This document shows positions 1,659 through 48,569 of a stretch of 48,569 nt of DNA, one piece after another. Made by a program: the position numbers and the translations under genes. The stretch is from a virus. The stretch covers positions 1 to 48,569 of the IMG/VR virus record IMGVR_UViG_3300020187_000056; one strand, 5' to 3'. Positions within the stretch are counted from its first letter, which is position 1, and each line of letters starts with the position of its first letter. Below the pieces are notes generated by a model. It saw only the letters and a list, made by a program, of their open reading frames with translations, did no database searches and was not told the DNA's origin.

Positions 1659-1700
1659 CCGCCTCCTAAGATAGAATAAAATTATTAAATAAAAAAAATT

Positions 1701-33200: not shown

Positions 33201-35997
33201 TAACGCTGCAAGCATTAAATACTCTCAAACACCTAAAGGTATTAGCGTATTCGACTTTGACGACACGCTGGCTCGCACAAAAAGTAATGTGCTATACGTT
33301 ACTGCTGATGGTAAAAAAGGTAAGCTTAACGCAGCTCAATTTGCCGCTAGATCGGAAACAATGTTAGCGCAGGGAGTAGAGTTTGATTTCAGCGAGTTTA
33401 GTAAAGTAATGAAAGGCGAGTTAGGCCCGTTGTTTAGCGAAGCACAAAAGAAAGAAGGTAAGTATACTAACAAAGATATATTTGTTTTAACAGCAAGACC
33501 AGCAAATTCGGCTAAAGCGATACATGAATTTCTGAAGTCAGAAGGGCTAAACATACCTATAGGAAATATAACAGGATTAGGTAATGGTGCCCCGCAGGCC
33601 AAGGCTGACTGGATGGTTAGTAAGATAGCAGAGGGCTACAATGATTTTTACTTTGCGGATGATCACATAGGCAACGTTAAAGCTGTGGGTAAAGCTCTAA
33701 AGAGCGAAGGTGTTACAGGTCAAACAGAATTGTCCATAGTAGATTTTAAAAATCAACCTAAGGCTGTAAGAGATATACTTAACACGTTTGATGTTAAAGG
33801 ACCAACACAGAGATCTAGGGTTAAGTTTAGTAGAACATCGAATAAGACTATTAACGACATGCTCGAAAGAGCTTCAGGTATTCCTTCTAGAAAAAGATTA
33901 ACACGAATAGAGGGAGCTGAGCTAGGTAAAAAGAAAGGCAGGTTCAAAATATGGATGCCTTCTAGCCTTGAAGATTTTAGAGGTCTTACGGAATATACAT
34001 TCGCAGGCAAAGGAAGACAGGGCGACATTGATCAAAAGTTCTTCCGAGATGCTTTGGTTACACCGTATTGGAGGGGTATAAATGAAATGGATCAAGTTAA
34101 GCAATCACTTAAGAACGGATTCGCAGCACTTAATAAGCAATTCAAGCCTGTGCTTAAAAAGCTAGGTAAGAAAATACCAGGCATGGAATACACACACGAT
34201 CAAGCAATACGTGTTTACCTTTGGAATAAAGCAGGATACGAAATACCTGGACTTACTAAAAAGCTAGAAAGAACATTAGTTGCCGCGGTGCAAGCTGATG
34301 CTGATCTACTAGCTTATGCTAATGGAGCATTAAGACTGTCTCAAAGAAAACAGTGGTCTAAGCCTTCTGATTATTGGAATGTACAAACCATATTATCTGA
34401 CATTAATAATTTCACAGAAAAAGCAGGTAGAAAAGAATACCTTAAGGAGTTTATTGACAATGCCGATTTAATTTTTAGCGAGAAAAACCTAAACAAAATA
34501 GAAGCTATATACGGAAAAGCTCATAGAGAAGCCATTGAGGATATATTGTATCGAATGAAAAACGGTACAAACAGAGCGGCGGGCATGAAAAAGAACGAGC
34601 AAACATGGAACAATTGGTTAAACAATTCTATTGGTGCTATTATGTTCTTTAACAGAAGATCCGCACTATTGCAATTGCTATCTACGGTAAACTTTGTAAA
34701 CTGGAGTGATAACAATCCAATGAAAGCAGCAGCGGCATTTGCAAATCAAAAACAATACTGGGCTGATTTCGCTATGATATTTAACTCAGCTTCATTAAAG
34801 CAAAGAAGATCAGGATTAAAGACGGATGTTAATGCAGCGGAACTTGCTAGTGCGGTTACAGGCGCAACGGATAAAGCATCTGCAGCATTGAATTATTTAC
34901 TTAAAATAGGATTTACCCCTACGCAAATAGTGGATAGTTTTGCTATCTCAGCAGGGGGTGCTACTCTTTATAGAAACAGATTGAATACTTATTTAAAAGA
35001 AAAAGACGCAAAAGGAAATCCTAAGTATACACAAAAGGAAGCCGAGAAGCAAGCGTTTTATGACTTTAGTGTTATTTCTCGTGAGACACAACAATCGGGT
35101 GATCCAGCTTTAATATCCTCGGATCAATCTAGTTCGCTTGGTAGGGTTGTTTTAAATTTTATGAATACACCTATACAATTGAACAGATCAATTAAAAAGG
35201 CTGCTCAAAATATATACTATAGGAGAAAAGAACCAGGTATGACTCAAATGCAAAGTGACTTTTCTAATTTTAGTAAAATAATATATTACGGAACCATTCA
35301 AAACGCTATTTTCTCAACACTACAAGCTGCAATGTTCGCGCTTATACCTGGATTCAATGACGACGATGAGGAGCTAGATGACCTAACTAAGCAGGAAAAA
35401 ATAGACAAGAAAACATTTGCGGTTATAAATTCAATGATAGACACTACTCTTAAAGGAGGCTTTGGTTTACCTGGAGCTGTAGTATCTATTTTAAAGAACG
35501 CTATAATAGAATACAAGAAGCAGGAAGACAGAGGATTCTTAGCAGATGATTCTAAAACACTTATAGCTTTACTTAATATATCGCCAGCAGTGGGATCAAA
35601 AGGAAGAAAGATAGTTAACTTTATTAAAACAGAAAGGTTTGATAAAGAAGTTATAAATGAAAGAGGCTGGGATGTAACCATAGACGGTAAATTTAATTTA
35701 AGTCCTAGGTGGTCTTCAGCAGGTAACCTTATTGAAGGAACACTTAATATACCGATGGCTAGGGTAGTTGATGAACTTAATTCCATAACGGAAGCATTAG
35801 ATTCTAGAAATACAGCGTATCAAAGAATAGCTTTAGCATTAGGCTGGAAGACTTGGAATGTAGGTGCTAAAAACGAAGAAAACGATTTAATAGAGGTTGT
35901 TGCTAAGTACAGAAATAAGCTAAATAAAAAAGCAGAAACCAAAGCAAAAAAAGCAGCTGAAAAATTAAAGAAAAGAAGAGCTAACATACAATACTAA
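27241..35997 (+). CDS. Giant multidomain virion protein (zincin, sigma2-like, PD-(D/E)XK-like, HAD)
   Basis: A 2918-aa protein, the largest here, probably ejected with DNA. Modules, in order: helical N-terminus with a hydrophobic segment near 501-524; zincin motif FAHEVLHSY with H1008 and H1012; Lys/Glu linker 1175-1265; sigma-region-2-like segment around 1325-1365 (YIKKFDP, then LFGYVMAQLGNRMRGAL); PD-(D/E)XK-like D1736 with E1749/K1751 (YAWEAKG); HAD phosphohydrolase with FDFDDTLA (D2005, D2007), LTARP and FADDHIGN; a long helical C-terminal region with a hydrophobic stretch near 2688-2705. A short (K)LS or KYS/KFS motif recurs near module borders. Polyvalent phage proteins injected at infection are a known class, and this fits. 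Individual activities are motif-based. Confidence 0.8.
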   Translation: MPKYKLNNGEVVDTSNFSEEEENNWLFDNTDNIDLNYDFQNGAVGTDASATPVNNPASNGDSISEDGLSGGVDRSEYLLTLDDIRGSSESDIAIALGEKLADVGLAVEESATYQDLTAIRIKKAIRGDTLKDRLAEGYEESGFWGDLLAGGLTLTQFTGDDPGTFAVGEDLTDEELQANLDKFNKFILENADYDFVDKARERSNDTYVNEYAPAVKATDLSKEEQKSQYIEELVDKFEEIKVLEDEWSPDTGRIGKAATIDDFESEKEFEDYKRWEKEEPISEIDNKTLEAWDYERREKEVLKNSGQFMSNLEPEQRADILALAIDDRKAVARFSTNIKKFEQDQVKFEEAYSNYKSDPSNSNFLAAQDLNLKLLEDQSRLQKAQTKATASGLLKRADAVPLAIADAQKNYNRLRQFNLGFRTTGQTVGFSALTLGTYLSQGFGGPGKMSLNEVNTLLDEGIGATSLSEDLAKETARNQYAIEVDDIRNLTDVGAWTMNSSINLAPSLAMASTGAFALPLFFLTGSGGVLEKRAMDQKQAASRILLNNEWLASNPNADPLEIATRQAQLDEDTRVIGIEDWRVLSTAGLSGAAEVVFEKIGTIAMLKSLKNGIGQVPIENMRQGFSFAAKGITKGMLQEGGSEFATTLVQNWGDIFILDGDKNLFGDVENWKKVTKGSLESFAQGALMGGGMSSINGAKAVQAGVLAEIATKEQNAAMQELVDKLSAIVGVELLNINNLSDLNLNFSPDVQAQIDKLLQEGVDIEADIIESLKSGFSAADLIEIGEINRKKRAISKKLLYASSQGLNASQLAAYKNQLQKDFEALDKQRETMLSGSAGKLNRISNKFNFEATGGYAMYSAAMLNESVFNINQNYLNQNKKQKQIAFDKARAKLKAEGKPFTEADVKKKAKDDYIYDAYYKKIEQGEKTAAALAESLGLDVKIISTNSTEETLQKALEANPNMSAENIAAIKAGQVEGMRIPGENGGPDTIIVDRNQAAINKRPGVFAHEVLHSYVAKKFGSANFVQTEKGVQASINKAGEDLLSFLEKNDKDLFAKVKFRIDSSYTNKNENGELIKNEDYYEEVLNAMSDVLADGQKLNTGTLSKIKSFANSLLEGIGQGPFFKEDQGKDAFIFVRDYNKSAHYGKKYNKKKAGVADDNKRARRSTGGNTGFSKSKKLTEAEEDRMEAIDEEIGEISDDLMQGFIDQDTHDKKIAKLEEEYENIENPPKVEVKAKPKAKPKAKKESDIDAPQASKKDEQSLSDVTAKSKKKLDAIGNNPDGFNPNDGAIYEVLAGMIRSKVKAFKTAGNNIVNLTNLPGFEMDNMVSETLTSLIPYIKKFDPAKNDSLFGYVMAQLGNRMRGALKTGRVTENAFTEDVTTAKGIAAEESSNEVKERPKFKKFTEANVVPSEVIDAIRTKLKSTLRTLKTRMDVAISNNRTVTPLIAEIQYEMGKQADIDLKKAMGGKKDLKLRKFLLKSKKAILENLTTTFLMGKDGKGGFPQAIQKKIDGKFVSYPGWVGKKIDRETTSTDNAGRTSGAEIVRRVPNVNRVVTDQEFLSQILDETGNPIRGRKEALAKAMAEEISFEIFSADLANPASEISEAFENNQERQGAVLAENFVQELERDMDRGNIKLSITKERQKELNEMWAKTWQTTSESNRLKAVEKLKKKLRKKEEKDYIETVDNMLTEEINEILELNWQQKEQRLVDITNKLQSVVPGLTIKQKTTQKNPNKADLVFSLYGKQYAWEAKGSRNAILATFYMGAWWKGDFKIKRKNVTKTTKDLIEAADQGNAEMQNLVDILEDMYDTGSYINEQGMRKRLYGKDLITKNKDGNFKMPVWFYDRYVKGVYSMGKVNGGAIRKFKIKGGLAAVVKVYNGKGPIPVRYITLADVGDLSMGALDPLNLNLPKLKGDVDVTVRFQPTFSGEKGSRKVTLARVASFKMTAETANTLSKKAKTNLFRENSAKETFTKAGNPQLSITKQAAINNAASIKYSQTPKGISVFDFDDTLARTKSNVLYVTADGKKGKLNAAQFAARSETMLAQGVEFDFSEFSKVMKGELGPLFSEAQKKEGKYTNKDIFVLTARPANSAKAIHEFLKSEGLNIPIGNITGLGNGAPQAKADWMVSKIAEGYNDFYFADDHIGNVKAVGKALKSEGVTGQTELSIVDFKNQPKAVRDILNTFDVKGPTQRSRVKFSRTSNKTINDMLERASGIPSRKRLTRIEGAELGKKKGRFKIWMPSSLEDFRGLTEYTFAGKGRQGDIDQKFFRDALVTPYWRGINEMDQVKQSLKNGFAALNKQFKPVLKKLGKKIPGMEYTHDQAIRVYLWNKAGYEIPGLTKKLERTLVAAVQADADLLAYANGALRLSQRKQWSKPSDYWNVQTILSDINNFTEKAGRKEYLKEFIDNADLIFSEKNLNKIEAIYGKAHREAIEDILYRMKNGTNRAAGMKKNEQTWNNWLNNSIGAIMFFNRRSALLQLLSTVNFVNWSDNNPMKAAAAFANQKQYWADFAMIFNSASLKQRRSGLKTDVNAAELASAVTGATDKASAALNYLLKIGFTPTQIVDSFAISAGGATLYRNRLNTYLKEKDAKGNPKYTQKEAEKQAFYDFSVISRETQQSGDPALISSDQSSSLGRVVLNFMNTPIQLNRSIKKAAQNIYYRRKEPGMTQMQSDFSNFSKIIYYGTIQNAIFSTLQAAMFALIPGFNDDDEELDDLTKQEKIDKKTFAVINSMIDTTLKGGFGLPGAVVSILKNAIIEYKKQEDRGFLADDSKTLIALLNISPAVGSKGRKIVNFIKTERFDKEVINERGWDVTIDGKFNLSPRWSSAGNLIEGTLNIPMARVVDELNSITEALDSRNTAYQRIALALGWKTWNVGAKNEENDLIEVVAKYRNKLNKKAETKAKKAAEKLKKRRANIQY

Positions 35998-37358: not shown

Positions 37359-37427
37359 ATGAAAAAACTAAAAAGCTATTGGAATAAGTTAATGTATCGG
37401 CTTATGTTTAAAAACTATAATGAATAA
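37359..37427 (+). CDS. Possible 22-aa basic peptide at end of late block
   Basis: An ATG begins 4 bases after the 48-aa peptide and gives 22 residues (MKKLKSYWNKLMYRLMFKNY plus NE). It ends just before the terminator stem. It is aromatic and basic, amphipathic-looking. Coding is uncertain because the ORF is so short; it may simply be trailing sequence. Confidence 0.3.
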   Translation: MKKLKSYWNKLMYRLMFKNYNE

Positions 37428-37431
37428 AAAA

Positions 37432-37460
37432 AAGGGGATAACCAATGCGGCTATCCCCTT
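37432..37460. terminator. Bidirectional intrinsic terminator between convergent blocks
   Basis: AAGGGGATA (37432-37440) and TATCCCCTT (37452-37460) form a perfect 9-bp stem with an 11-base loop. An A-run precedes it (T-run on the minus strand) and an AT-rich stretch follows. It sits between the late genes and the minus-strand nrdA stop at 37480, so it can end both transcripts. Confidence 0.8.
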
Positions 37461-37479
37461 AATAATTTATATGGATATT

Positions 37480-39201
37480 TTATCCATCACACGCAAGACA
37501 ATCCTCATCCATTGCGGACGCAGCAATATCTCCTCGCAACACACTTTCTGTTCTTGTATAATATAAGGTTTTAACACCCTTCTTCCAAGCTTCCATGTGT
37601 ACCTTGTTAAGCCATTTAGGAGTTGCCTCCGCTGGAAAAGCAAGATTCAAACTAACAGACTGATCTACATACTGTTGTCTTAATCCGGCCTGGGCAATGA
37701 GTTCCAGCTGATTGATCTCTTTAAATGTTTTAAAAACTTCTTTGGCAGGTATGTCATGATCACCAACGGTAATATCATCCAACCCGTCAATATCCTGTAC
37801 TGAACCACCGTCAGCCAGTATCTTACTCCATGTTTTTTCATTGTTTAAGTTATGTTTTTCTAGTAGTTTAACAAGCGTTAGGTTTTTCCTAATAAAAGTA
37901 CCTTTAGCACTTTGCTCCGTGAAAACATTTGCAGCCCACGGCTCAATACCCGGTGAGACATTTCCACTAAGCTTGCTATTGCTAACAGTAGGTGCAACAG
38001 CACGTAAATGGGTATTACGCATACCAGTTCCAGCACACCAAAGAGGTTCTCCATAAATCTCCGCAAGGTCCATGGAAGCTCTTTCGCTTTCAATTTTGAT
38101 TTGCGAAAATATTTTCCTAGTTTCAAACTGAGATAATAGACCTTCGAAAGGAATACCTTTCTCTTGGAGATATGTATGCCATCCAAGGACTCCCAGGCCC
38201 AATGCTCGCCCTTTCTGCGCAGATCGTATAGCATTTTCGAATCCGCGTAACCCCTTGGCTCTTTGAATAAATTCCTCCATAACTCCGTCAAGAAAGAACG
38301 TGGCGTCATAGATAAGGTTAGTATCCTTCCATTCCTCATATTTAGCTAAGTTTAATGATGATAGGCAACATACAAAACTGTGACTTTCATCGGTGTGTAA
38401 TGTGATCTCTGAACATATATTAGTCATGTGAACCTTTAACCCATTTTCTTTATATGCTTCTGGATTTGCTTTGTTAACATTCCCTTTAAACATAATGTAC
38501 GGTTCTCCAGTTGCTTTTCGCTTTCTAAGTAGTTTACTCCATCGAGTCCTTGCATCTGCATCTCCTTGTTCAAGTTTTCGCATAAATTTATCACCAACAA
38601 TTGCGCACTGATGAAGGTTAAGTGACTGCCTGTTGACATCCCCTTTAGGTTCTCTAATCTCAAGCCACTGTTCGAAATCTCCATGTTCAATATTGATATT
38701 AACTGAGGCAGCTCCGCGACGGACAGAGCCTTGATTAGTTGCGAGAATTGTTGAGTCAAAAATTTTAGCGAAGGGCACGACTCCATCTGATGTTCCATTA
38801 CCTGTTATATTACTGCCAGCGGGTCTAATTTGATTAATACCAACGCCAACTCCACCGCCATGCTTAGCGAGTAACATCATTTCTAAATTCTTTTGCCCTA
38901 TATCCTGGATGCTATCAGCCACATCAATCCCGAAACAGCTAATAGGCAAACCCCGATCAGTACCTGTGTTAGATAATACTGGGCTAGCGAGGCAAAGCCA
39001 ACCATTCCAAATGTATTGGAAGAACGTTTCCGCCATTTCCGGTTTGTATAACCTACGAGCAACTGTTTTAGATACCCTGTGGTATGCTTCTTTTGGTGTT
39101 TCTCCATCATATAAATATCCTCCTGATATAGTTTTCTTATATACTTCTGTATCACCCCACTCAGGGTAATCGTCTCCTTTAATCCAATTTTTGTTCCACA
39201 T
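37480..39201 (-). CDS. nrdA: Ribonucleotide reductase large subunit, class I, short form
   Basis: A 573-aa class I RNR alpha subunit; it reduces NDPs to dNDPs with NrdB. Key residues: C89 (E. coli C225) in LPISCFG; N261, C263, E265 (N437, C439, E441) in TNICSEI; C278 (C462) in FVCCLSSLNL; radical-path pair Y547-Y548 in TLYYTRTES; and a C-terminal CxxC (C568, C571) that accepts electrons. It is about 190 residues shorter than E. coli NrdA (761 aa): the N-terminal ATP-cone is missing, so dATP feedback at the activity site is probably lost. The start overlaps a 71-aa gene. Position next to nrdB supports the call. Confidence 0.95.
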   Translation of the reverse strand: MWNKNWIKGDDYPEWGDTEVYKKTISGGYLYDGETPKEAYHRVSKTVARRLYKPEMAETFFQYIWNGWLCLASPVLSNTGTDRGLPISCFGIDVADSIQDIGQKNLEMMLLAKHGGGVGVGINQIRPAGSNITGNGTSDGVVPFAKIFDSTILATNQGSVRRGAASVNINIEHGDFEQWLEIREPKGDVNRQSLNLHQCAIVGDKFMRKLEQGDADARTRWSKLLRKRKATGEPYIMFKGNVNKANPEAYKENGLKVHMTNICSEITLHTDESHSFVCCLSSLNLAKYEEWKDTNLIYDATFFLDGVMEEFIQRAKGLRGFENAIRSAQKGRALGLGVLGWHTYLQEKGIPFEGLLSQFETRKIFSQIKIESERASMDLAEIYGEPLWCAGTGMRNTHLRAVAPTVSNSKLSGNVSPGIEPWAANVFTEQSAKGTFIRKNLTLVKLLEKHNLNNEKTWSKILADGGSVQDIDGLDDITVGDHDIPAKEVFKTFKEINQLELIAQAGLRQQYVDQSVSLNLAFPAEATPKWLNKVHMEAWKKGVKTLYYTRTESVLRGDIAASAMDEDCLACDG

Positions 39202-39394
39202 CTACGGCTGGTTGTTTAGCTTGGTTTTCTAATAATTTATCTATAGCTTCCTTGTACCCTGGCATCAATTTAATGGTCTCTAACAAGCCCTGGGTTAACG
39301 TGTTTATATGTACTATGTTTTGTATATTATTGTGCAGAGCTTCGGCTATTTTGCCCATGTCATGCTTCATATTCATTAAAGTTTGTTCTTTCAT
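39179..39394 (-). CDS. Small helical protein between nrdB and nrdA
   Basis: A 71-aa acidic/helical protein (KHDMGKIAEALHNNIQNIVHINTLTQGLLETIKLMPGYKEAIDKL) ending in KQPAVDVEQKLD. It overlaps the nrdA start by 23 bases and follows nrdB by 17. The leader is A-rich without Shine-Dalgarno. No domain is recognised. Genes between nrdB and nrdA are sometimes redox partners, but no CxxC is present here. Confidence 0.65.
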   Translation of the reverse strand: MKEQTLMNMKHDMGKIAEALHNNIQNIVHINTLTQGLLETIKLMPGYKEAIDKLLENQAKQPAVDVEQKLD

Positions 39395-39411
39395 TTTATT
39401 TATTTTTTAGT

Positions 39412-40380
39412 TTACCAAATATCTTCAAAGTCTTCTCCTTCACCCGCTTTCGAGTAATCTGTCGACCTAAGCGCGAAAAAATCAGTATGGGTAACGCCCC
39501 CGGTAAGATGGTAAAACCAATCAAGATTGCCCGCTGCATTGGGGTCATACGCAAAATACGATCCCAAGTCGACGTAACCAAGTTCCACAAGTTTTTCATT
39601 TGTTCTTTTCTTTATAAAGTGTTTAAGATCGTTTGCGGATATACCTTCAATGTCACCCATTTCAAACATCTTATCTATATACTTTGTTTCTAGCTTAACC
39701 ATTATTTCGGCAGCTTCTATTATGTCTTCTCGACATAAGTGTAGTAGTTGATTATCTTCATCACACATATCACGGAATAGCTTACAACCCATTTTACTGT
39801 GTAACGATTCATCTCTAACTGACCATTTCATCTGTTGACCTACGCCTTTAAGTAAATTACGTAGCTGAAAAGAATACAGCACTGCAAAAGCACTATAAAG
39901 AGATACTCCTTCAGCGAACGCAGAGAATACTGCAAGTGATTTCGCAATGCCAACACTAGATTTACCACTGTAAGCAACCAAGTTATCAAACCTATCAGCA
40001 GTAGCAGGTTCATGTAAAAATGCTTCATAATCTTCTAATCCTAATGTTTCGTTTAAGTAACTATAAGCTACAGCATGTACTGTTTCTTGTGATCCAAACA
40101 TCATAGCCATTTGTTGTATTTCATATTTAGGAAACCATCCTACTACATTCTGCGTCCAATAGTCAGATACTGCGCATTCAGTCTGAGCAAAGCCTAGCAG
40201 GATGTTGCCTACTAGGTTTTTCTCTTTGTCATCTAACTTCTCGTTCCAATCTTTAATATCACTTTGCATCGATATTTCGGTGTGTAACCAAAATGCTTGT
40301 GCTTGTTTAAGCCAACCCTCAGTATAATACTCAGGGTATTCAAACGGCTTGTAAGGTATTCTTTTATCTCGTAATCCCAT
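39412..40380 (-). CDS. nrdB: Ribonucleotide reductase small subunit, class I
   Basis: A 322-aa beta subunit that forms the tyrosyl radical or metal cofactor for NrdA. Metal ligands visible: E68 (E. coli D84), E99 and H102 in GSQETVHAVAY, E157 in FAEGVSL, and E191/H194 in RDESLH. The tyrosine Y106 is correctly placed seven residues after E99 (E. coli Y122). The C-terminal acidic tail (GEGEDFEDIW) is the likely docking peptide for NrdA. The gene overlaps the upstream 61-aa gene by 17 bases. Secure assignment; the metal (Fe/Fe or Mn) cannot be read. Confidence 0.95.
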   Translation of the reverse strand: MGLRDKRIPYKPFEYPEYYTEGWLKQAQAFWLHTEISMQSDIKDWNEKLDDKEKNLVGNILLGFAQTECAVSDYWTQNVVGWFPKYEIQQMAMMFGSQETVHAVAYSYLNETLGLEDYEAFLHEPATADRFDNLVAYSGKSSVGIAKSLAVFSAFAEGVSLYSAFAVLYSFQLRNLLKGVGQQMKWSVRDESLHSKMGCKLFRDMCDEDNQLLHLCREDIIEAAEIMVKLETKYIDKMFEMGDIEGISANDLKHFIKKRTNEKLVELGYVDLGSYFAYDPNAAGNLDWFYHLTGGVTHTDFFALRSTDYSKAGEGEDFEDIW

Positions 40381-40549
40381 CTACTTTCATCATGTATTTA
40401 ATTGTTTGTAATGTTGCTCTCCAGTATTCCATGTGAGCTAGCATATCCGCTTTTTTAACGCTCATATCGACTCTATTAAAGTCACTAAGTATTTCGTCTA
40501 CAAAGAAACTAATGGTCTCCATCTGGACTTTCATTTCGTCGTTTGTCAT
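40364..40549 (-). CDS. Small helical protein upstream of nrdB
   Basis: A 61-aa protein (MTNDEMKVQMETISFFVDEI, then HMEYWRATLQTIKYMM) that is helical and amphipathic. Its ATG overlaps the stop of the 52-aa gene upstream by four bases (ATGA), and its end overlaps nrdB by 17. Tight translational coupling argues for a real gene in the nucleotide operon. Function unknown. Confidence 0.6.
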   Translation of the reverse strand: MTNDEMKVQMETISFFVDEILSDFNRVDMSVKKADMLAHMEYWRATLQTIKYMMKVDGITR

Positions 40550-40704
40550 ACGAACTTTGTAAAGGCTATGTCGATAAACGGTACGTATAGCACGTGAGTT
40601 GTAAACTCTTCCTCGCGATACGATCTAAATCCAAATAATATTCCCGGGTATACGCCTAGCTCTAGCATCCATCCTGGTCTGTCGTCTTCTTCTTTCATGT
40701 ACAT
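40546..40704 (-). CDS. Conserved 52-aa phage protein
   Basis: Starting at ATG 40704 (Met3 at 40698 is an alternative), the product has DRPGWMLELGVYPGILFGFR, then EEEFTTHVLYVPFIDIAF. I recall similar small proteins in marine phages with a conserved G-x-Y-P-G-I-L-F-G core and Y-V-P-F-I-D-I end. It is hydrophobic but without a clear membrane helix. It ends in ATGA overlap with the 61-aa gene. Function unknown. Confidence 0.65.
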   Translation of the reverse strand: MYMKEEDDRPGWMLELGVYPGILFGFRSYREEEFTTHVLYVPFIDIAFTKFV

Positions 40705-40865
40705 TTTATATTATGCTTATTTTGTTGTTTAATTAATTCCTTATACTTGATCTTGCCTCTTGTGTTCCAGCTCCACTTCCACCATTTTTCTATTTGGCGT
40801 TCTACGTATTTTTTTCTTGCTAGTGCTTTCGCTTCTCTAGGATTATTCGAACTGTCTCGTCGCAT
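40695..40865 (-). CDS. Small basic protein (56 aa)
   Basis: ATG 40865 gives a basic, Trp-rich product (REAKALARKKYVERQIEKWW, then KWSWNTRGKIKYKELIKQ). It overlaps the downstream 52-aa gene by 10 bases and the 3' end of the nuclease gene by 46. It fills an otherwise empty stretch of a dense operon, which favours coding. No domain recognised. Confidence 0.5.
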   Translation of the reverse strand: MRRDSSNNPREAKALARKKYVERQIEKWWKWSWNTRGKIKYKELIKQQNKHNIKCT

Positions 40866-41275
40866 GTAGCTTGGTTTGAAGGTTTATATAATGTTATGCC
40901 AGGGAACTGGCTAACAACTAACTGTTTGAATAGTTTCCATCGCATTGGAAATGATTCGTTTGCTCTGCCTTTGGTTTCTATTATGAAATCATCGCCAATA
41001 AAATCAGGAGTATACTTGATAGGTAATATTCTTTTGTTACCTCTGTTTTTAAAATCCCCTTTGCCATTGCTTTGTTTCTCATAAACCTCGTTATCAAAAT
41101 GGAATCCATTTAATAAAACAAAAGTTTCACCTTCGTATTTGCATTTTATACCTGCGTTTTTTAAAGCAACCCACATATATTTCTCAAGCCCGGAGGCAAA
41201 GTCAATACCGTCATACGATACCTTCTTTGCTCTTACTGGACCTCTTTTCTTTGAGCTCTTTTTAAACTTTTTCAT
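40820..41275 (-). CDS. PD-(D/E)XK endonuclease, phage resolvase-like
   Basis: I choose ATG 41275, directly after the upstream stop (TAAAATG), rather than the longer frame to 41293. The 151-aa product is basic. The nuclease core is SGLEKYMWVALK (E31), YTPDFIGDDFIIETKGR (D91, E100, K102), a PD-(D/E)XK layout, then a helix RWKLFKQLVV. Phage proteins of this kind are Holliday junction resolvases or DUF1064-like nucleases. Role in resolving or trimming recombining DNA is inferred from neighbours (ERF and exonuclease in the same block). Confidence 0.8.
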   Translation of the reverse strand: MKKFKKSSKKRGPVRAKKVSYDGIDFASGLEKYMWVALKNAGIKCKYEGETFVLLNGFHFDNEVYEKQSNGKGDFKNRGNKRILPIKYTPDFIGDDFIIETKGRANESFPMRWKLFKQLVVSQFPGITLYKPSNQATCDETVRIILEKRKH

Positions 41276-41276
41276 T

Positions 41277-42065
41277 TTACAGGGTTTTTGCAAACGTTCC
41301 GTTAGTCATAGATCCTTTTCTATTCTTGATCTCGTCGTAAGCAGCGTCAATACAGTGCTCTATATCATACCCTTCTAACTTAGCTAGATTAGTTAATACA
41401 ACAACCATATCACCAATAGAGTCAACTATCTCGCGATTATTTTTGGTTAGAAGCGCTTTAGCTAATTCACCAGCCTCTTCCATAAGCTTTACGTATTGTG
41501 TTTTAGAATCACCTAATTTATATATACCTCTTTCTTCAGCCCACTCGCGTATCAAATCAAATGAACTAAAATTTTTAGGTTTTTCAAACTGTTTTTCTTT
41601 TTTTAGCTCGTCTACAAATGATAACAACGTTTTATTATAAACGTATGATCTTGAGTTTCTAAAGTGTGAAGTACGCGCATTTTTCAATATCCAGTCTTGT
41701 TCTTGTTGATTAAGAGTTACCTTAGAACCTTCTATAGATAGTTTTAATCCTGTACTTTTAGCAAGATATTCTTTCAAATCCGTTTTTCCTACTGGAAAAG
41801 TTACTGTTTGGTCTGTGATGTTTATTGACATTTTATTATTTTTTTTATTAAATTGATTAGATAATATTTTGTAACTATTGAAGTCCGCTTTATAGCCATA
41901 AGACTTTTGAAGTTCTATCTCCATATCAGATATATAATTTATATCTTCGCTTGTAAATAGAACCTCGTATTCGTCTGAAGTATAGCCTTGCTCCTTCGTA
42001 ACCCTCTTATTAAGATCACGTGTAACTCCGATCTTTTTATTAGGTATGTGATAAATATAATACAT
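41277..42065 (-). CDS. GIY-YIG-like / MazG fusion protein
   Basis: A 262-aa protein. Residues 1-70 resemble a GIY-YIG nuclease start (YYIYHIPNKKIGVTRDLNKRV), but truncated and without an obvious catalytic Glu. Residues 79-160 are an unassigned linker. Residues 168-250 are a MazG-type NTP pyrophosphohydrolase with EEAGE (E196, E197, E200) and DSIGD (D215, D219), hydrolysing NTPs to NMP and PPi. Met79 (ATG 41831) sits behind a 24-base A/T run that looks like a native leader, so MazG may also be made alone. Fits with nucleotide genes around it. Confidence 0.75.
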   Translation of the reverse strand: MYYIYHIPNKKIGVTRDLNKRVTKEQGYTSDEYEVLFTSEDINYISDMEIELQKSYGYKADFNSYKILSNQFNKKNNKMSINITDQTVTFPVGKTDLKEYLAKSTGLKLSIEGSKVTLNQQEQDWILKNARTSHFRNSRSYVYNKTLLSFVDELKKEKQFEKPKNFSSFDLIREWAEERGIYKLGDSKTQYVKLMEEAGELAKALLTKNNREIVDSIGDMVVVLTNLAKLEGYDIEHCIDAAYDEIKNRKGSMTNGTFAKTL

Positions 42066-42073
42066 ATTTATTT

Positions 42074-42898
42074 TTATTTGCCAACACTCAGCGGCGCTTT
42101 TATTGCCGGGTAAGGATTGTAGATTAATAATTTAATTTCAAAATCTTCTGGAATATTTAATCCGCCTAGTAGATTATCACTTAGCCCTCTTTCTAATTCG
42201 AGCTTAGGTAATGCTCTGTTAGGCCTATTTAAGTATTCTCTGGCTTGATCCAAATGATTGTTATACAAATGACAGTCTCCAAGCTGTCCTATTAGCTGCC
42301 CAGGCTTCAAATCAGAGCCTTTGGCCAACATCTCTAAGAGTAAGCCATACATTGCAATATCGTACGGCAGGCCAAGAAAAATATCAGCGGATCTTTGTTG
42401 CCACATTAGATCTATAACGCCATCATTTACATAAACCTGAAAAGCATAATGACAAGGAGGCAAAACCATATCCGGCATATCAGAAGGATTCCAAGCTGAA
42501 ACCATCATACGACGGCTGTCGGGATCAGTACGTATAGCATGAACAAGGTTTTTAAGCTGGTCTACGCCTTTAAAATCCCGCCATTGCTTGCCGTATACTG
42601 GGCCTAACGTTTCATCTGTTCTACCTGAGCGTTTATAATCTGGTCTCCAGTATTTAACACCATTATCTTCAAGATACTTTAGATCTGTTCTGCCATTTAA
42701 TATCCACAGCAATTCAGTTCTTGCAGCATTAAAACTTATCTTCTTTCCTGTAAGTATAGGGAAGCCCATTGACATATCATGCTTGATTGTTCTTCCGAAC
42801 ACAGATCTCGTTCCAGTTCCAGTTCTATCTTTTTTAGCAGCTCCTCTGTCGAGTACTTCCGCCATAAGCTCTCTGTATTTGTCCTCAATGTTAATCAT
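42074..42898 (-). CDS. thyA: Thymidylate synthase ThyA
   Basis: A thymidylate synthase that makes dTMP from dUMP with methylene-tetrahydrofolate. From Met6 (ATG 42898, overlapping the upstream stop by 8 bases) it is 274 aa; a longer start at 42913 adds five residues. Numbering from the long start: catalytic Cys154 in LPPCHYAFQ, dUMP/folate-site QRSADIFLGLPYDIAMYG (173-190), and QWR at 110-112. Length is in the family range (E. coli 264 aa). A complete, probably active enzyme. Confidence 0.96.
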   Translation of the reverse strand: MINIEDKYRELMAEVLDRGAAKKDRTGTGTRSVFGRTIKHDMSMGFPILTGKKISFNAARTELLWILNGRTDLKYLEDNGVKYWRPDYKRSGRTDETLGPVYGKQWRDFKGVDQLKNLVHAIRTDPDSRRMMVSAWNPSDMPDMVLPPCHYAFQVYVNDGVIDLMWQQRSADIFLGLPYDIAMYGLLLEMLAKGSDLKPGQLIGQLGDCHLYNNHLDQAREYLNRPNRALPKLELERGLSDNLLGGLNIPEDFEIKLLIYNPYPAIKAPLSVGK

Positions 42899-43106
42899 GC
42901 TTTGGTAATACACTTTTTAGTTTTTCAACATAGTTAGCTGCGTCTAGTAGTTCTTCTTGCAAGTGTTGTAGCCACTTCTGTAAGTCTGGTACATCTTCGT
43001 CTAAAGTTACACCATACTTCTTATAGCCTACGTCAGATCTACTTACTAATTGATCACATACACTTTCAATTATTGGATCCCTAAATGTTACTTCTTTTGT
43101 TTTCAT
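42891..43106 (-). CDS. Small MazG-like helical protein
   Basis: A 71-aa protein: SRSDVGYKKYGVTLDE, then DLQKWLQHLQEELLDAANYVEKLK. The QEELLDAANYVEKL helix is the pattern of one all-alpha NTP-PPase helix (EExxD), and phage proteins of this type accompany dNTP genes. It has only one metal-binding-like motif, so catalysis is doubtful. It overlaps thyA and the upstream gene (ATGA, 43103-43106). Confidence 0.75.
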   Translation of the reverse strand: MKTKEVTFRDPIIESVCDQLVSRSDVGYKKYGVTLDEDVPDLQKWLQHLQEELLDAANYVEKLKSVLPKHD

Positions 43107-43357
43107 TGATTTGATTTTTTATAATAATACATATAATACTCGTACATTTTTACCCACACTTCTGTTCTGCTTACTTGGTCAGGAGCATTAACTATCTTGC
43201 CGTTTAAATCTAACACTAGCACCCATCTTGTTGGAGTACCTGCGCCTACAGCCGATGGTGATATTCTTATATTGTTATTAATACACCAGCGTCTAGCTTG
43301 CTCTTCTTTTTCACTGGGAATGTGAGCTCCCATCATACTCGCTTTTTTCTTAGCCAT
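43103..43357 (-). CDS. Small conserved protein, unknown
   Basis: An 84-aa protein, basic at the N-terminus (MAKKKASMMGAHIPSEKEEQ), with GTPTRWVLVLDLNGKIVNAP and an aromatic C-terminus (MYEYYMYYYKK). It overlaps the primase-helicase 3' end by 8 bases and the next gene by 4. No domain is recognised. Coupling suggests replication-linked expression. Confidence 0.6.
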   Translation of the reverse strand: MAKKKASMMGAHIPSEKEEQARRWCINNNIRISPSAVGAGTPTRWVLVLDLNGKIVNAPDQVSRTEVWVKMYEYYMYYYKKSNQ

Positions 43358-45056
43358 TCTCCCAAGGCATTTTCTCTTCTTCAGGCTGACTCATAGGAAC
43401 GTAGCATCCACTCTTTGTATCCCAAGTGAAGTGGCATTCAGCGCCATTAGTACCGAGGTTTTGAAACTTACACTTAAGTATTTTTACTTTAACAGTGTTA
43501 GCCTCATAGTTTCTATGCACTAATAATCCGTGATAACTAGCATCGTACCATTCTCCTCCTCCTTTAATAGAATACATTGTAGGCTCTTCAATTTCGCCTG
43601 TCTTTTGATTCTTATACATCTTGGTAGGGTGAGCAACTACAAACACAAGCACATCATACTTTTTAGCAAATACTTCTATCTTAGTTAGATAATCCATGGT
43701 ATATCTATTGACATCATCGCTTACAGCATTTATGTCTCTTACCTTGTTGAATGGATCTATCACCAAACATTTAATACCTTTGCGTTTAACAAGCTCTGCT
43801 CCTTTCTTTAAGATTGAATCTAAAGAATATCTTTCCATGTCTATATGGAAGTAATTTGCATTACAGTGATCTGCTATTTGATTCCACTTCTCTCCTCCAA
43901 TATCTTCTTTCTCAGGCATACCTTGCCAGTGCTTACGCATTAGCTTGTGAGCATGAAGAAAGGTTGGTACATTTTCAGGCGAAGCATACGCTGTCTTCCA
44001 TGAGTAGCGTTGGTTATATCCAACAACCATTTGGTCGACAAAATCAGACTTGCCGGAAGAAGGTATACCAGTGACAGTAATAAATTGACCGGTATAAGTT
44101 GAAAAGATGTCATCAAAGTTATTAAGACCAACTTGAAATCCTGGCGTAAAGCCATTCCTAACAAACTCAGTAACTTCGTCTTCGATGTCCCTGAACGTTG
44201 TAACATTCTCCATTGGTACAGGCTTTGCACCTGTAATACGCTCTGATAGTTTTTCTTTTCCATACTTCTGTAAATATTCATTAGCATCTTTACAGTCTTC
44301 AAAGGTTGTTATAAAACAAACTTCAGATCCTAGTCTTCTTATTAATTCTGTTTGTAAAGCTAGTCCAGCATCATCTGTGTCAACAGCTAATATGATCTTC
44401 TCTTTGTCTTCAAAATAATCAATACAATTATCAAGATAATCAAGGTTGTTGTTGTTAAGAGTTGCTCCATTTGGTACTGATATAGCGTTTGTTATGCCGG
44501 CTTCGTGTAGTGCTAACACATCCATTTCACCTTCGACTATTACACAGTATTCAAATCCAACTGTCGCATCTATATTATAAAATACTTTCTCAGCTCCCTT
44601 ATATAATTTAAAGTTTTTTCTTCCATCGCGGTACTTGATGTTTGTTAATTCACCGCCCATGAAGTAATTAAACTTTATTACATTCTCGGTCTTGCTGGTT
44701 TGTGGCATCCATTCAGGCCCCTCAGTAACTTGTAAGTCAGTGAGGGTCTGTTTGGAAATACCCCTTGTTTTAAACCAATCTTCAACTTTCATACCGGGCT
44801 CAACACGTATAGCAATAGGCTCTGGCTTTGAATATACTTTTTCGGCCTTGCCTTTACGTTTGTAGGTATGCAATTGAAATGATTTATTACAGTTATGACA
44901 AGTACCGAGACCACGTTCCCAATCGTAAGAAGCACACTTTGCTTTTTGATTCTTGGGTTTTCTATCAGGGGAACAAACAGGGCATATACCCTGCTTCTTT
45001 CCTTCTTCAAGCTTATGTTGATTGAACTCATCAATCGCAAATCCATTGATCTCCAT
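43350..45056 (-). CDS. DNA primase-helicase (T7 gp4-like)
   Basis: A 568-aa bifunctional protein. The zinc-binding primase domain has CPVC (C25, C28) and CHNC (C53, C56). The TOPRIM core has VIVEGEMDVLAL with E175 and AVDTDDAG with D226/D228. The helicase has Walker A GIPSSGKS (330-337) and Walker B CLVIDPFN (D434), plus an arginine-rich RecA-type C-terminal half. It primes and unwinds at the fork. Length matches T7 gp4 (566 aa). No DNA polymerase is in view. Very secure. Confidence 0.95.
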   Translation of the reverse strand: MEINGFAIDEFNQHKLEEGKKQGICPVCSPDRKPKNQKAKCASYDWERGLGTCHNCNKSFQLHTYKRKGKAEKVYSKPEPIAIRVEPGMKVEDWFKTRGISKQTLTDLQVTEGPEWMPQTSKTENVIKFNYFMGGELTNIKYRDGRKNFKLYKGAEKVFYNIDATVGFEYCVIVEGEMDVLALHEAGITNAISVPNGATLNNNNLDYLDNCIDYFEDKEKIILAVDTDDAGLALQTELIRRLGSEVCFITTFEDCKDANEYLQKYGKEKLSERITGAKPVPMENVTTFRDIEDEVTEFVRNGFTPGFQVGLNNFDDIFSTYTGQFITVTGIPSSGKSDFVDQMVVGYNQRYSWKTAYASPENVPTFLHAHKLMRKHWQGMPEKEDIGGEKWNQIADHCNANYFHIDMERYSLDSILKKGAELVKRKGIKCLVIDPFNKVRDINAVSDDVNRYTMDYLTKIEVFAKKYDVLVFVVAHPTKMYKNQKTGEIEEPTMYSIKGGGEWYDASYHGLLVHRNYEANTVKVKILKCKFQNLGTNGAECHFTWDTKSGCYVPMSQPEEEKMPWENG

Positions 45057-45077
45057 TGTCTTTATTTAATTTAATTG

Positions 45078-45167
45078 TTATTCTCCGTCTAAGCACTCGG
45101 GGCATATATCGCAATAATCAAAGTCACACTTAGTCATGACCTCTCCGCACATTTCGCATTGATCCAT
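45078..45167 (-). CDS. 29-aa Cys-rich mini-protein
   Basis: ATG 45167 overlaps the SSB stop by one base (TAATG). The product has CEMCGEVMTKCDFDYCDICPEC: two CxxC-type pairs plus two more cysteines in 29 residues, reading as a zinc ribbon or knuckle. It is followed by the primase-helicase leader. It may be a small regulator or a nucleic-acid-binding cofactor. Coding is plausible because of the overlap, though the ORF is very short. Confidence 0.5.
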   Translation of the reverse strand: MDQCEMCGEVMTKCDFDYCDICPECLDGE

Positions 45168-45478
45168 TAAAATGGTAGATCATCGTGTGCTACTGCTGCA
45201 GGGGCTGGCGCTTGCTGTTGTCCGTCACCTCTTGGTGCAGCTTCAACATTAGTACCGTTACTCCATACAACTTGTACGTTTCCTAAATAAACTTTGTCAA
45301 CTTTCGCATCACGTTCTTCTTTAGTTTGTTCCACGATAACAGGACCTTGATTGTTATACTGGTCTAGTTCGTCATTAATTGTAATAACTATTGGTAAATA
45401 GCTACCCTTCTTTCCTTTGTAGATCTTATCCTTTGGAATTTTATTTAGATCTATATTCGCTTTTATAATACTTGCCAT
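45167..45478 (-). CDS. Single-stranded DNA-binding protein-like
   Basis: A 103-aa protein with a Lys-rich OB-fold-like N-terminal half (SIIKANIDLNKIPKDKIYKG, YLPIVITINDELDQYN), a Gln/Pro/Ala-rich linker and a terminal HDDLPF. The D-D-(L/I)-P-F tail is the hallmark of SSB proteins, which bind recombination partners with it. It is short for bacterial SSB but within phage range. It is flanked by primase-helicase and recombination genes. Confidence 0.75.
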   Translation of the reverse strand: MASIIKANIDLNKIPKDKIYKGKKGSYLPIVITINDELDQYNNQGPVIVEQTKEERDAKVDKVYLGNVQVVWSNGTNVEAAPRGDGQQQAPAPAAVAHDDLPF

Positions 45479-45480
45479 AA

Positions 45481-45681
45481 TTAGTACGCTTGTAATTGGT
45501 TAAACATGTTAGTTAATTGTTCTTTCGTTGCTCCCGTGTTTCGTCGAATGTTATCAACGGCTTTTACATGGGTTTGGTTAGTATAAAAATTGTTCGCTGT
45601 AGTTTTCATACCTGTTACAGAGCAGGTTCTTTTTGATTTTCTCATTGGATTAAATTTAGTTATTAATTGTTTTACATTCAT
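45481..45681 (-). CDS. Small basic protein next to SSB, unknown
   Basis: A 66-aa basic protein (MNVKQLITKFNPMRKSKRTCSVTGMKTTANNFYTNQTHV). It ends two bases before the SSB start and begins just after a repeated leader element (45682-45712). One Cys pair is absent. No domain recognised. It could be a small DNA-binding partner of SSB. Confidence 0.6.
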   Translation of the reverse strand: MNVKQLITKFNPMRKSKRTCSVTGMKTTANNFYTNQTHVKAVDNIRRNTGATKEQLTNMFNQLQAY

Positions 45682-45712
45682 ATTATCATTTTTTATTCGT
45701 GTTCAGACTGTA
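45682..45712 (-). repeat. Duplicated 31-base leader element, copy 1
   Basis: A stretch just upstream (minus strand) of the 66-aa gene. It is nearly identical to the stretch 47948-47981 ahead of the 37-aa gene; the shared 15-mer CGTGTYCAGACTGTA lies at 45698-45712 (plus-strand reading) and 47967-47981, and AT-rich sequence continues toward each start codon. A promoter, RNA-processing site or duplicated gene border are all possible. Both copies also encode or resemble L-Q-S-x-H in one frame. Confidence 0.6.
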
Positions 45713-45716
45713 AGAG

Positions 45717-46469
45717 TTATAATGTTTCGGTTTTAACATAATCTTTAATATCAAACAGCGGATCTTCTATTAGCTTCTCATACTGCTCCATTGCCATTTT
45801 AACTTTGTAGCCACCTCTCTCGTAGAACTCATCAGAGCAATCATATATGCCTATTTGATGTGTCTTCTTACATATTACAAGGAAAACTAATTCGTGCCCA
45901 AATATGCGTCTGTATAAGTACGCTTGACTGTCATAGTTGTATGTATTAGCACTTTTCCTGAATCCGTTTATATCTCCTGTGGTTTTTATATCTACTAGTA
46001 GCCCTTGATCTTTGTTGATGCAATCGGCTTTACCTTTCCACCAGGTTCCGTTAATATTTTTGATTCCAGGTTCTTCGTATATAACGTCTTGACCGGTTAA
46101 TAGAGATTGACATACTGAATTGTTTTTAATTTTGTTAATCATTAGGTTACACTTATCGACTTCTTTACGCAGGATCATCATCTTGCCGTCGTTAGCTGCA
46201 ACATCGGCTTTATATATTTTAGTTAACCTGCTTGATCCTTCTGATATAGGATAATTAGCTTCTAGTTTATCCGGCTCGAGAATAGCCGTGTGAACATAAC
46301 CACCAATAATGAAATTGATATTCTGCTCAACCGGCTTTCCGAACTGTTCCGGGTCATTAAGTAGCTTATATATATCTGAGTTAGATCTATATTGCCTACC
46401 TACTCCGTTATAATATTCCTCATCAATTCTAAGTAGTTCTACTACTTTACTTTGTTCGGTTTCTGTCAT
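45717..46469 (-). CDS. PD-(D/E)XK exonuclease (RecE/YqaJ/DUF3799-like)
   Basis: A 250-aa nuclease. Motifs: H60 in GGYVHTAIL, D149 in WKGKADCI, and D160-x-K162 in GLLVDIKTT, followed by the helix YDSQAYLYR (Q182). This is the typical order of RecB/YqaJ-like phage exonucleases that resect double-strand ends. It directly follows the ERF annealing gene (TAATG overlap), a canonical exonuclease/annealase pair. Good confidence. Confidence 0.85.
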   Translation of the reverse strand: MTETEQSKVVELLRIDEEYYNGVGRQYRSNSDIYKLLNDPEQFGKPVEQNINFIIGGYVHTAILEPDKLEANYPISEGSSRLTKIYKADVAANDGKMMILRKEVDKCNLMINKIKNNSVCQSLLTGQDVIYEEPGIKNINGTWWKGKADCINKDQGLLVDIKTTGDINGFRKSANTYNYDSQAYLYRRIFGHELVFLVICKKTHQIGIYDCSDEFYERGGYKVKMAMEQYEKLIEDPLFDIKDYVKTETL

Positions 46470-47047
46470 TATAGTGTTTCACTTTTTATAGGTTTAGCCG
46501 CTTCTAATACTTTTTGTATTTCTTTAGAAACGTTGTACTTAGTTGTAATAGCTTTTAAATCTCCGCCTCCTTCAACGAACTTAAGCGCTTTAGCATATAA
46601 AGGATCTTTCTTGGATGTTAATGAGACTTTTTCAGTTTTACCCGAATGATCATTAGATGCGTCTGCGTCTGCTGTATCATCGATAAGGAATAAGTTACCT
46701 AAGGCATACTTTTTACCATAACTAGAAGCTGCACCGTATTTTTGTGGCATAGACATTCCCTTAGATAGTAGATCAACGCCAACGATCGCAGAAGTACGTA
46801 TAGCAGAGTCAGACTCGGCATCTAGTATACTTGCTGTTGACTTTATAATAGGTGGGTCAATGCTAATCATCTCCTCGTCTATTGTTACGGTCACATTATG
46901 TTGAACACAAAATGGTTTAACCGCTTCAAGTATATCTTCAGCTGCTCGATAGTAATATTTACCAAAGCCGTTGTACCTGGATTTTTTAGCTTTCATATCC
47001 TTTTGGATCATAGCTAATTTTAATTGTAGATTTCCTGTTTCTTTCAT
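46469..47047 (-). CDS. ERF-family single-strand annealing protein
   Basis: A 192-aa recombinase. The ERF signature is GAASSYGKKYALGNLFLIDDTADAD (105-129), where the family has S-Y-x-x-R/K-Y-x-L and a following acidic D-A-D. The N-terminal half (FGKYYYRAAEDILEAVKPFCVQHNV) is also typical. It anneals complementary ssDNA during phage recombination or replication. A C-terminal helix and SETL end are extra. It overlaps the exonuclease start by TAATG. Good confidence. Confidence 0.87.
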   Translation of the reverse strand: MKETGNLQLKLAMIQKDMKAKKSRYNGFGKYYYRAAEDILEAVKPFCVQHNVTVTIDEEMISIDPPIIKSTASILDAESDSAIRTSAIVGVDLLSKGMSMPQKYGAASSYGKKYALGNLFLIDDTADADASNDHSGKTEKVSLTSKKDPLYAKALKFVEGGGDLKAITTKYNVSKEIQKVLEAAKPIKSETL

Positions 47048-47097
47048 TTGCTTTACTTGTATTTGTTATTAATATAATTACGTATTTTGAGCATAAC

Positions 47098-47847
47098 TTA
47101 AAGGTAATCAATCACTTGCGCTGCGTCGACGTTAGCGATTAGATGGTCGATTGCTTCCTTCTTTATTTGAGATACAATGACATTAGCCGTTGGAACTGTG
47201 AGACTTATGTGCTTTGCAATCTCTTTGGCAGAATGTTTTTTACAGTCTAAACCGTAGAATAATCTTACTACCTCATATTGCTTTTCTGTTAGATGTTCTT
47301 TCATTATGCCTAATAAATATATATTGAGTAGATCAATATTGTATGGCTCTGAGTTATCAGGTAATTGATACGCAAAGTTATTTTCGTCGGCAGGTGTTAT
47401 GTCGTAACTAGAAAACATACTGTTGAAAAACAGGGCAACCATTTTTTGATCTTTAGGGTTGTTGCGTATAGCATTGAGCTTGTGCTCTGGAATCTTTATA
47501 TCTCCCCTGTTTATATCTATGGCTCTGCGTATGGCTCCCTTGATTCTTTTGCTGAAGAATGACTTTAACGTTTTCTCCATGTCATTAGATTCGTTTAAAG
47601 CAATCCAATCTATTCTGTCTACTGCTTTAATTAATCCTGAATTACCCTCTTGTATCAAATCATTTATACTAAGTACTCCTGATGCTTGCTGTGTTGTTGC
47701 GAACTTACGTGCTAAGTTTTCTACTAACGGCAGAAACTTTGTTATTAGCTCATCTCTAGTATACTCATCAAAGAATTTACCGTCAGGCATAGATCTTTTA
47801 ATATCTTCTTTGTATCTTACATAGTTATCTATATTATACTTTTTCAT
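47098..47847 (-). CDS. Phage sigma-70 family factor
   Basis: A 249-aa protein with sigma region 2 (about 37-110: LVENLARKFA, SINDLIQEGNSGLIKAVDRID, FFSKRIKGAIRRAI) and region 4 (about 190-240: LTEKQYEVVRLFYGL, then a helix-turn-helix SAKEIAKHISLTVPTANVIVSQIKKEA). Region 1.1 and region 3 are missing or short. It would steer host RNA polymerase to phage promoters, such as the repeated motif at 2064 and 25217. No phage RNA polymerase is visible. It overlaps the upstream 37-aa ORF by 14 bases. Confidence 0.88.
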   Translation of the reverse strand: MKKYNIDNYVRYKEDIKRSMPDGKFFDEYTRDELITKFLPLVENLARKFATTQQASGVLSINDLIQEGNSGLIKAVDRIDWIALNESNDMEKTLKSFFSKRIKGAIRRAIDINRGDIKIPEHKLNAIRNNPKDQKMVALFFNSMFSSYDITPADENNFAYQLPDNSEPYNIDLLNIYLLGIMKEHLTEKQYEVVRLFYGLDCKKHSAKEIAKHISLTVPTANVIVSQIKKEAIDHLIANVDAAQVIDYL

Positions 47848-47947
47848 CGTTTATTTTTTGGTATGCAGCTGTCATAGCTTCGTTATCTGCAAAAAAATTA
47901 TTATTTATTTTTAGCATCCATTCATTGAATTTTTCAATCTCTTCCAT
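47834..47947 (-). CDS. 37-aa small protein upstream of sigma gene
   Basis: ATG 47947 gives an acidic helical product (MEEIEKFNEWMLKINNNFFA, then AMTAAYQKIN). It starts right after the duplicated leader element and overlaps the sigma gene by 14 bases. It may act by translational coupling to sigma. Coding is plausible, function unknown. Confidence 0.5.
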   Translation of the reverse strand: MEEIEKFNEWMLKINNNFFADNEAMTAAYQKINDEKV

Positions 47948-47981
47948 ATTATTATCTATTTTTTATCGTGTCCAGACTGTA
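47948..47981 (-). repeat. Duplicated leader element, copy 2
   Basis: Nearly identical to the element at 45682-45712 (one substitution plus small indels). Part of it is the coding end of the 79-aa gene (L-Q-S-G-H-D). It lies directly before the 37-aa ORF and the sigma gene. Candidate early promoter or RNA-processing signal on the minus strand, or a duplicated gene boundary. Confidence 0.6.
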
Positions 47982-48195
47982 GGCCTCTTATTTTAGCAAA
48001 TACATTTGCTGCGTTTGTATAGTCTTCGATACTTTCATAGTGTTTTAAAAGTAAATTTAATTCTATTATTTGTTCTTCGTTGCTAGGCAATGAATTAATA
48101 AACTCCTCATTCATTGCTTTAGCTTCATCATTAATACGTATAAACAATTGTTCTACAATCATATCCACGATCTTATTCATCTCTTCTTCTGTCAT
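47956..48195 (-). CDS. Small acidic helical protein, unknown
   Basis: A 79-aa acidic protein (MTEEEMNKIVDMIVEQLFIR, then EQIIELNLLLKHYESIEDYTNAANVFAKI) ending LQSGHDKK. The second half looks like a TPR-like helix pair. It begins 3 bases after the upstream gene. The C-terminal coding sequence is part of the duplicated element. Function unknown. Confidence 0.6.
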   Translation of the reverse strand: MTEEEMNKIVDMIVEQLFIRINDEAKAMNEEFINSLPSNEEQIIELNLLLKHYESIEDYTNAANVFAKIRGLQSGHDKK

Positions 48196-48198
48196 ACT

Positions 48199-48474: not shown

Positions 48475-48568
48475 CTTCTATTATGTTAAACAAATCTTCT
48501 AGCTTAGAATAGATCTCATCACCTATATCGTGTGTATGATTGAACTCGATGTTTTCTAATGATATTCT
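48458..48568 (-). CDS. Unknown protein, C-terminal part (5' end outside window)
   Basis: The frame is open from the right edge and stops at TAG 48458. Only 36 C-terminal residues are visible (ENIEFNHTHDIGDEIYSKL, EDLFNIIEDEDEA), acidic and helical. It overlaps the next gene start by 17 bases, as elsewhere in this operon. Nothing can be said of function. Confidence 0.6.
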   Translation of the reverse strand, partial: RISLENIEFNHTHDIGDEIYSKLEDLFNIIEDEDEA

Positions 48569-48569
48569 A

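Follow-up and report, generated by a model that had tools for sequence, protein, structure and literature searches.

In-frame internal translation starts are known in phages. In gene 4 of phage T7, which encodes the primase-helicase, an internal in-frame start gives rise to the 4A and 4B proteins, and this has been proven experimentally. For endolysins from phages of Gram-positive hosts, the accessible part of one report describes how two polypeptides are made from single genes via an in-frame internal translation start, with both isoforms shown (PMC9430671). Internal starts have often been spotted via Shine-Dalgarno-type ribosome-binding sites, and since Bacteroidetes lack Shine-Dalgarno sequences, as stated in an extract of PMC6847099, nested genes in Bacteroidota and their phages are easily missed. 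According to the same extract, initiation in Flavobacterium johnsoniae is favoured by A at positions -3, -6, -12, and -13 together with low structure, and AUG is scarce near starts. A search of the literature for internal starts in Bacteroidetes phages returned nothing.

As for the protein itself, the T5orf172 family belongs to the GIY-YIG superfamily, and in the ICP1 protein Gp88/Odn such a domain is combined with a RepA_N domain in an enzyme that keeps the catalytic Arg/Glu pair and cuts DNA at the replication origin (extract of PMC8263062). Phage MazG-like proteins in which a C-terminal MazG domain follows an N-terminal extension are represented by phrog_1992, phrog_1994, and MRS_039 of Staphylococcus phage MR003. 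In the literature on GIY-YIG or T5orf172 domains together with MazG, as far as the accessible parts go, no such fusion is described.

Here we analyze a GIY-YIG-MazG gene of a marine phage for which sequence comparison makes it likely that two proteins ending at the same stop are made from one frame, a long form of 262 amino acids and a short form of 184 amino acids, the latter from an A-rich internal start without a Shine-Dalgarno sequence. Like the endolysin genes (PMC9430671, accessible part), it would be a phage gene with one frame, a common stop, and an N-terminally shortened second product, but the signal is A-rich and of the SD-less type, the protein is a GIY-YIG-MazG fusion, and the short form is predicted. 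The likeness to T7 4A/4B is that the shorter form would lack the N-terminal nucleic-acid domain, while the oligomerising enzyme part is common to both forms; the two cases differ in the enzyme, the host, and the initiation signal, and what is proven for T7 is predicted here. With Odn, as presented in the extract of PMC8263062, our protein shares a T5orf172-family domain in a chimeric phage protein and, by the invariance of R21 and E49 described below, the Arg/Glu pair; in Odn, however, the domain is joined to RepA_N in an origin nuclease, whereas here it heads a MazG protein and its nuclease activity is putative. The N-terminal parts of the other phage MazG-like proteins differ from the GIY-YIG and middle domain pair found here. 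The present case differs from the known internal starts in signal, host group, and protein.

The window, that is the whole stretch of 48,569 nucleotides analyzed here, carries the gene at 41277..42065. The initial annotation had placed an open reading frame in this interval without naming a strand; the frame is genuine and is read from the minus strand, running from its own ATG (42063..42065) to a stop codon at 41277-41279, while the same interval on the plus strand is full of stops. The architecture consists of three parts and not two as first described: a GIY-YIG-clan head of the T5orf172 type (residues 1-70, 41856..42065), a conserved middle domain (residues 79-160, 41586..41831) that had been overlooked, and a MazG nucleotide pyrophosphohydrolase domain (residues 163-262, 41280..41579). 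Between the head and the middle domain lies a short A/T-rich linker (residues 69-78, 41832..41861), which is the proposed leader of the internal start. Met79, whose ATG at 41829..41831 is the proposed internal start codon, follows directly, and the predicted short product would extend over 41280..41831. In a structure model of the full-length protein (mean pLDDT 91.5) the only segment of at least three residues under 50 comprises residues 71-76, so that the linker appears disordered just before Met79, which is itself placed outside regular secondary structure at the border of the disordered stretch. A probable full-length relative is found in BFVD (A0A516MJS7, 43% identity over 262 columns), which means that the long protein is already in public databases, although without a name there. 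The BFVD entry A0A516LX97, a viral protein of 185 amino acids with a structural match of 77 columns and 49% identity to part of the model, could be an example of one of these domains with another partner.

The 262-residue protein itself has no GIY-YIG family match at residues 1-70 in Pfam or among the PHROGs, and the head alone gave one weak match in the phage collection (E 0.6); structure searches with the whole model as query returned lists filled by MazG. Among the 66 aligned members, on the other hand, 33 match T5orf172 (PF10544) and 25 match MUG113, which we take to be another family of the GIY-YIG superfamily (E≤1 in both cases), and in the relative L241 both matches exceed the curated cut-offs (residues 9-63 and 12-58 respectively). 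These matches make the original description of the first 70 residues as GIY-YIG-like correct at the superfamily level. Y5, K11, G13, R21, and E49 are invariant in the 66 diverse members, and from their spacing and the extract of PMC8263062 we infer that R21 and E49 are the catalytic Arg/Glu pair. A second, weak GIY-YIG-like match (E 4.65e-04) is seen at L055:912-1076, about 3 kb before the main one in the same locus. A role in recombination has been suggested for the T5orf172 family (extract of PMC7824862), which would suit the resolvase-like neighbour gene described below.

The MazG assignment, which the initial annotation had given to the last 95 residues, is borne out by a Pfam match above cut-off (PF03819, residues 193-250, E 2.4e-05), by matches of the C-terminal part to PHROG MazG families, and by structural matches of the same part of the model to 6j2l of the MazG family (Z 10.1, 2.7 Å over 82 residues) and to 7ody of cyanophage S-2L (Z 9.7, 2.6 Å over 95 residues). 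All 66 aligned members match MazG (E≤1), and E196, E197, E200, D215, and D219 are invariant among them, fitting the EExxE and later D-x3-D residues that bind metal in MazG nucleotide pyrophosphohydrolases. The middle domain folds well when modelled alone (mean pLDDT 90.3), but a structural search gave a best Z of 3.1 and no convincing relative among solved structures, and the phage collection gave a single weak partial match (E 0.7).

The terminase of this phage matches 87 phage records, 68 from Flavobacterium, 15 from Cellulophaga, 2 from Tenacibaculum, 1 from Maribacter, and 1 other, which makes a flavobacterium the probable host. The gene follows a thymidylate synthase gene and precedes a Holliday-junction-resolvase-like gene, the likely ATG of which (at 41275) lies one base past the GIY-YIG-MazG stop; ribonucleotide reductase and primase-helicase genes are nearby. 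Where the flank is long enough to tell, 201 of 217 relatives retain the resolvase-like neighbour, and thymidylate synthase was found upstream in 94 of 193. In the phage collection no record matches at least 80% of the protein, no DNA-level match was found for 37400-48569 of the window, and the 42 kb covered of the nearest annotated phage by terminase, MW202828, contain no relative.

Relatives were collected by three protein-guided and two pattern scans of viral contigs and by one scan of bacterial genomes, and all counts below refer to the matches listed by these scans. Duplicates, defined as proteins that were identical, contained in another, or identical in the last 150-200 residues, were removed. 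Also left out were two chance pattern matches (L172 and L177), three contigs that stop before the junction (L330, L375, and L382), MazG-like parts without a middle domain (L333, L335-L348, and L350-L353), one contig with the middle domain out of frame (L329), and one with the junction missing and the frame broken (L358). The broken frames in the middle domain or at the junction are each seen in a single contig, so assembly errors are possible, or else the copies have decayed. This left 255 distinct relatives with a middle domain, which are not independent of one another; 11 of them are cut on the 5' side and 244 are not.

The GIY-YIG-type domain was found in frame in all 244 uncut relatives (in 231 the GIY motif was located by pattern and in the remaining 13 by eye), so that the long form is kept throughout. 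Among 31 stretches of bacterial genome contigs that fit the pattern, five encode relatives, and all five are fused. A stand-alone gene whose start corresponds to Met79, named earlier as a sign of recent fusion, was looked for in the scanned viral and bacterial genome contigs; among the matches listed there was no free-standing gene of middle domain plus MazG, and the separate MazG-only genes that do occur (for example L333 and L335-L343) all lack the middle domain. Nor does the head show the sporadic, mobile presence expected of a homing endonuclease. Because it is in frame in every uncut relative and its key residues are invariant, the fusion is neither recent nor a decaying nuclease remnant.

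The junction ATG is present in all 255 distinct relatives among the matches listed (231/231 and 24/24 further ones); in L363 and L371 the automated pick was a later Met, but the junction Met is visible in both. In the first set of relatives the ATG sits eight residues ahead of a T-x-T-F motif in 189 of 196. Across the 196, the Met follows the last Y-x-Y at a distance of 15 to 26 residues. In the alignment of the middle domain the Met is invariant in 35 of 35 sequences and the adjoining columns are variable. Homologues combining the long form with a conserved linker and no internal start had been suggested as counter-evidence; what we find is that the long form is kept, the linker varies both in length and in sequence, and the ATG is universal. 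In the window 23 bases without G or C precede Met79 (24 had been reported), giving a 25-base A/T run at 41830-41854 when the AT of the ATG is counted. Only three A/T runs of at least 23 bases exist in the window (1675-1702, 41830-41854, and 47891-47913), and the first of these, 28 bases long, leads into the ATG of the ORF at 1701-2042, so the likeness to gene leaders that was noticed originally is real.

Codon usage at the junction was compared among 66 members that share less than about 72% identity. GC3 is 0.093 over the ten codons leading up to the Met versus 0.238 in the ten further upstream and 0.235 in the ten that follow, and the values are 0.197 in a second variable linker of the protein and 0.207 in K/N-rich windows taken from other ORFs (n = 390). 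In 37 K/N-matched linkers the GC3 was 0.128 (Mann-Whitney p about 1e-4 against the K/N-rich windows). The codons preferred before the Met are AAA for Lys, AAT for Asn, TTA for Leu, TAT for Tyr, and CAA for Gln. Among 43 relatives under 65% identity, 37 have a pre-Met GC3 below the value for the remainder of the gene, and when ten-codon windows are pooled (225 in all), the nine with the lowest GC3 all cover pre-Met codons; in single genes, GC3 is equal or lower in about a third of windows, ties included.

A start profile was trained on 881 ORF starts, which had been picked mechanically. It gives the internal site a mean score of 4.04, compared with 2.00 for the training starts and -1.32 for other in-frame Mets of the same proteins, and synonymous shuffles of the linker lower the score to 3.05 ± 0.08. 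In 47 of 66 members the score of the internal site equals or exceeds that of the gene's own ATG. The values for the window are 7.40 at the internal site and 3.03 at the gene's own ATG, and none of the 13 other gene starts examined there goes above 7.24. The leader with the score of 7.24 belongs to an ORF of 71 amino acids at 39179-39394 on the minus strand and is very like the internal leader of the GIY-YIG-MazG gene. As a control we used all conserved internal Met columns, 27 in number, from seven gene families of these phages. The junction Met tops the 27 columns with a profile score of 4.24 (next 2.23) and has the lowest preceding GC3, 0.091 (next 0.125).

The 40-base folding energy is weakest from about -24 to +12 relative to the ATG, with values of -0.3 to -0.9 kcal/mol compared with mostly -2 to -5.6 elsewhere; in the window itself the weak folding equals the expectation from composition (z 0.40). 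Other ATGs near the candidate are depleted, 29 being observed versus 45.2 ± 3.6 expected, and of seven control offsets six lie within about one standard deviation while +30 is also low. The Met79 ATG of the window has no other ATG within 40 bases on either side. Among 194 relatives A is found in 78% at -3, 76% at -6, 54% at -12, and 58% at -13, a pattern that follows in part from the amino acids encoded. The junction signal resembles the SD-less, A-rich initiation signal of Flavobacterium as given in the extract of PMC6847099, and by comparison a putative ribosome-loading signal is present upstream of the internal ATG.

The junction thus carries a conserved ATG and a nucleotide-level constraint. 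Given that no relative has lost the ATG, that the remainder of the linker can vary, and that codon choice at this place is bent towards an unstructured A-rich leader, the simplest account is that ribosomes start there. The comparison gives good support to the initially proposed option of one frame yielding two proteins, the short product being predicted. Initiation at the own ATG (42065) would give the 262-residue form with its GIY-YIG-clan head, flexible linker, middle domain, and MazG, and ribosomes loading directly on the linker-coding stretch, which is A-rich, unstructured, and nearly free of G, would start at the internal ATG (41831) to give the 184-residue form of middle domain and MazG; the initiation signal would be of the Shine-Dalgarno-less, A-rich Bacteroidota kind. 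MazG enzymes act as oligomers, and for this reason long and short chains might co-assemble through the shared MazG part, with the ratio of the two starts setting the number of GIY-YIG heads per MazG core; we put this forward with less assurance than the internal start. Part of the (d)NTP pyrophosphatase might then be free and another part tethered to DNA or to a nuclease. It is a more speculative and rather doubtful proposal that, in a large marine and probably flavobacterial phage clade, two SD-less starts set up a mixed MazG oligomer with a limited number of GIY-YIG heads held by a new adaptor domain, coupling (d)NTP removal to DNA cutting or binding. On that proposal, the GC3 dip, the lack of G, and the depletion of ATG before a constant Met could serve as a trace by which to search for further nested genes in Bacteroidota and their phages.

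Could the long protein be the only product, with the Met kept as an N-terminal residue of the middle domain and the low GC3 reflecting relaxed, A/T-biased codon usage in a disordered segment? We regard this as unlikely. In 189 of 196 relatives the N, T, and T that follow are as invariant as the Met itself, so there may be a protein-level reason for the conservation in those members, and the short form is so far predicted. The Met is nevertheless retained in 26 of 231 relatives where the residues after it have diverged or shifted, it is placed outside regular secondary structure at the edge of a disordered stretch, neither the second variable linker nor the K/N-rich windows elsewhere have such a codon bias, and at none of the other 26 conserved internal Mets do the signals occur together.

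The codon bias and A-richness amount to a nucleotide constraint of unspecified kind, and they could in principle serve an internal promoter, an mRNA processing site, or a DNA element, all the more as such phages may have promoters outside our scans: the window encodes a protein matching a phage RNA polymerase sigma factor family (47098-47847, minus strand, phrog_351, E 7e-22), so the phage may use its own promoters. We consider this improbable. TAnnTTTG, the Bacteroidota -7 promoter motif, occurs in the 120 bases upstream in one of 43 relatives compared with 8 and 10 in two control stretches, on the minus strand the interval from the region of the own start to the internal ATG contains no sigma-70-like site, no Rfam match was found in the window, and such a use would leave the constant ATG and the depletion of other ATGs unexplained. 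GIY-YIG domains are common in mobile endonucleases, the gene is flanked by thymidylate synthase and the resolvase-like gene and has ribonucleotide reductase close by, and its linker resembles a leader, all of which would fit a mobile homing endonuclease gene that joined mazG not long ago and is now decaying, the linker being an old and functionless mazG leader. This reading, a form of which the initial annotation had raised as a homing nuclease remnant, is hardly credible: the fusion extends to very diverged relatives and to the five contigs from bacterial assemblies, key positions of the head are invariant, and a functionless leader would not retain its ATG and codon bias. A recent fusion event is refuted by the fusion in all uncut relatives listed, while an ancient fusion of a homing endonuclease with mazG is possible as the origin of the gene.

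The preferred reading, two products from one frame, thus draws on several partly independent traces of a nested gene, obtained from comparative sequence alone and kept through deep divergence. If it is true, the gene offers a testable case of SD-independent internal initiation and of a MazG enzyme in two forms, as well as a conserved putative adaptor domain.

Elsewhere in the window, on the plus strand, an ORF of 2918 amino acids at 27241-35997 is very large for a record of 48.6 kb, and a GroEL-like chaperonin gene is found at 2123-3727 (phrog_5725, E 7e-137); in the related phage MW202828, groEL and a 10-kDa chaperonin are annotated as well.
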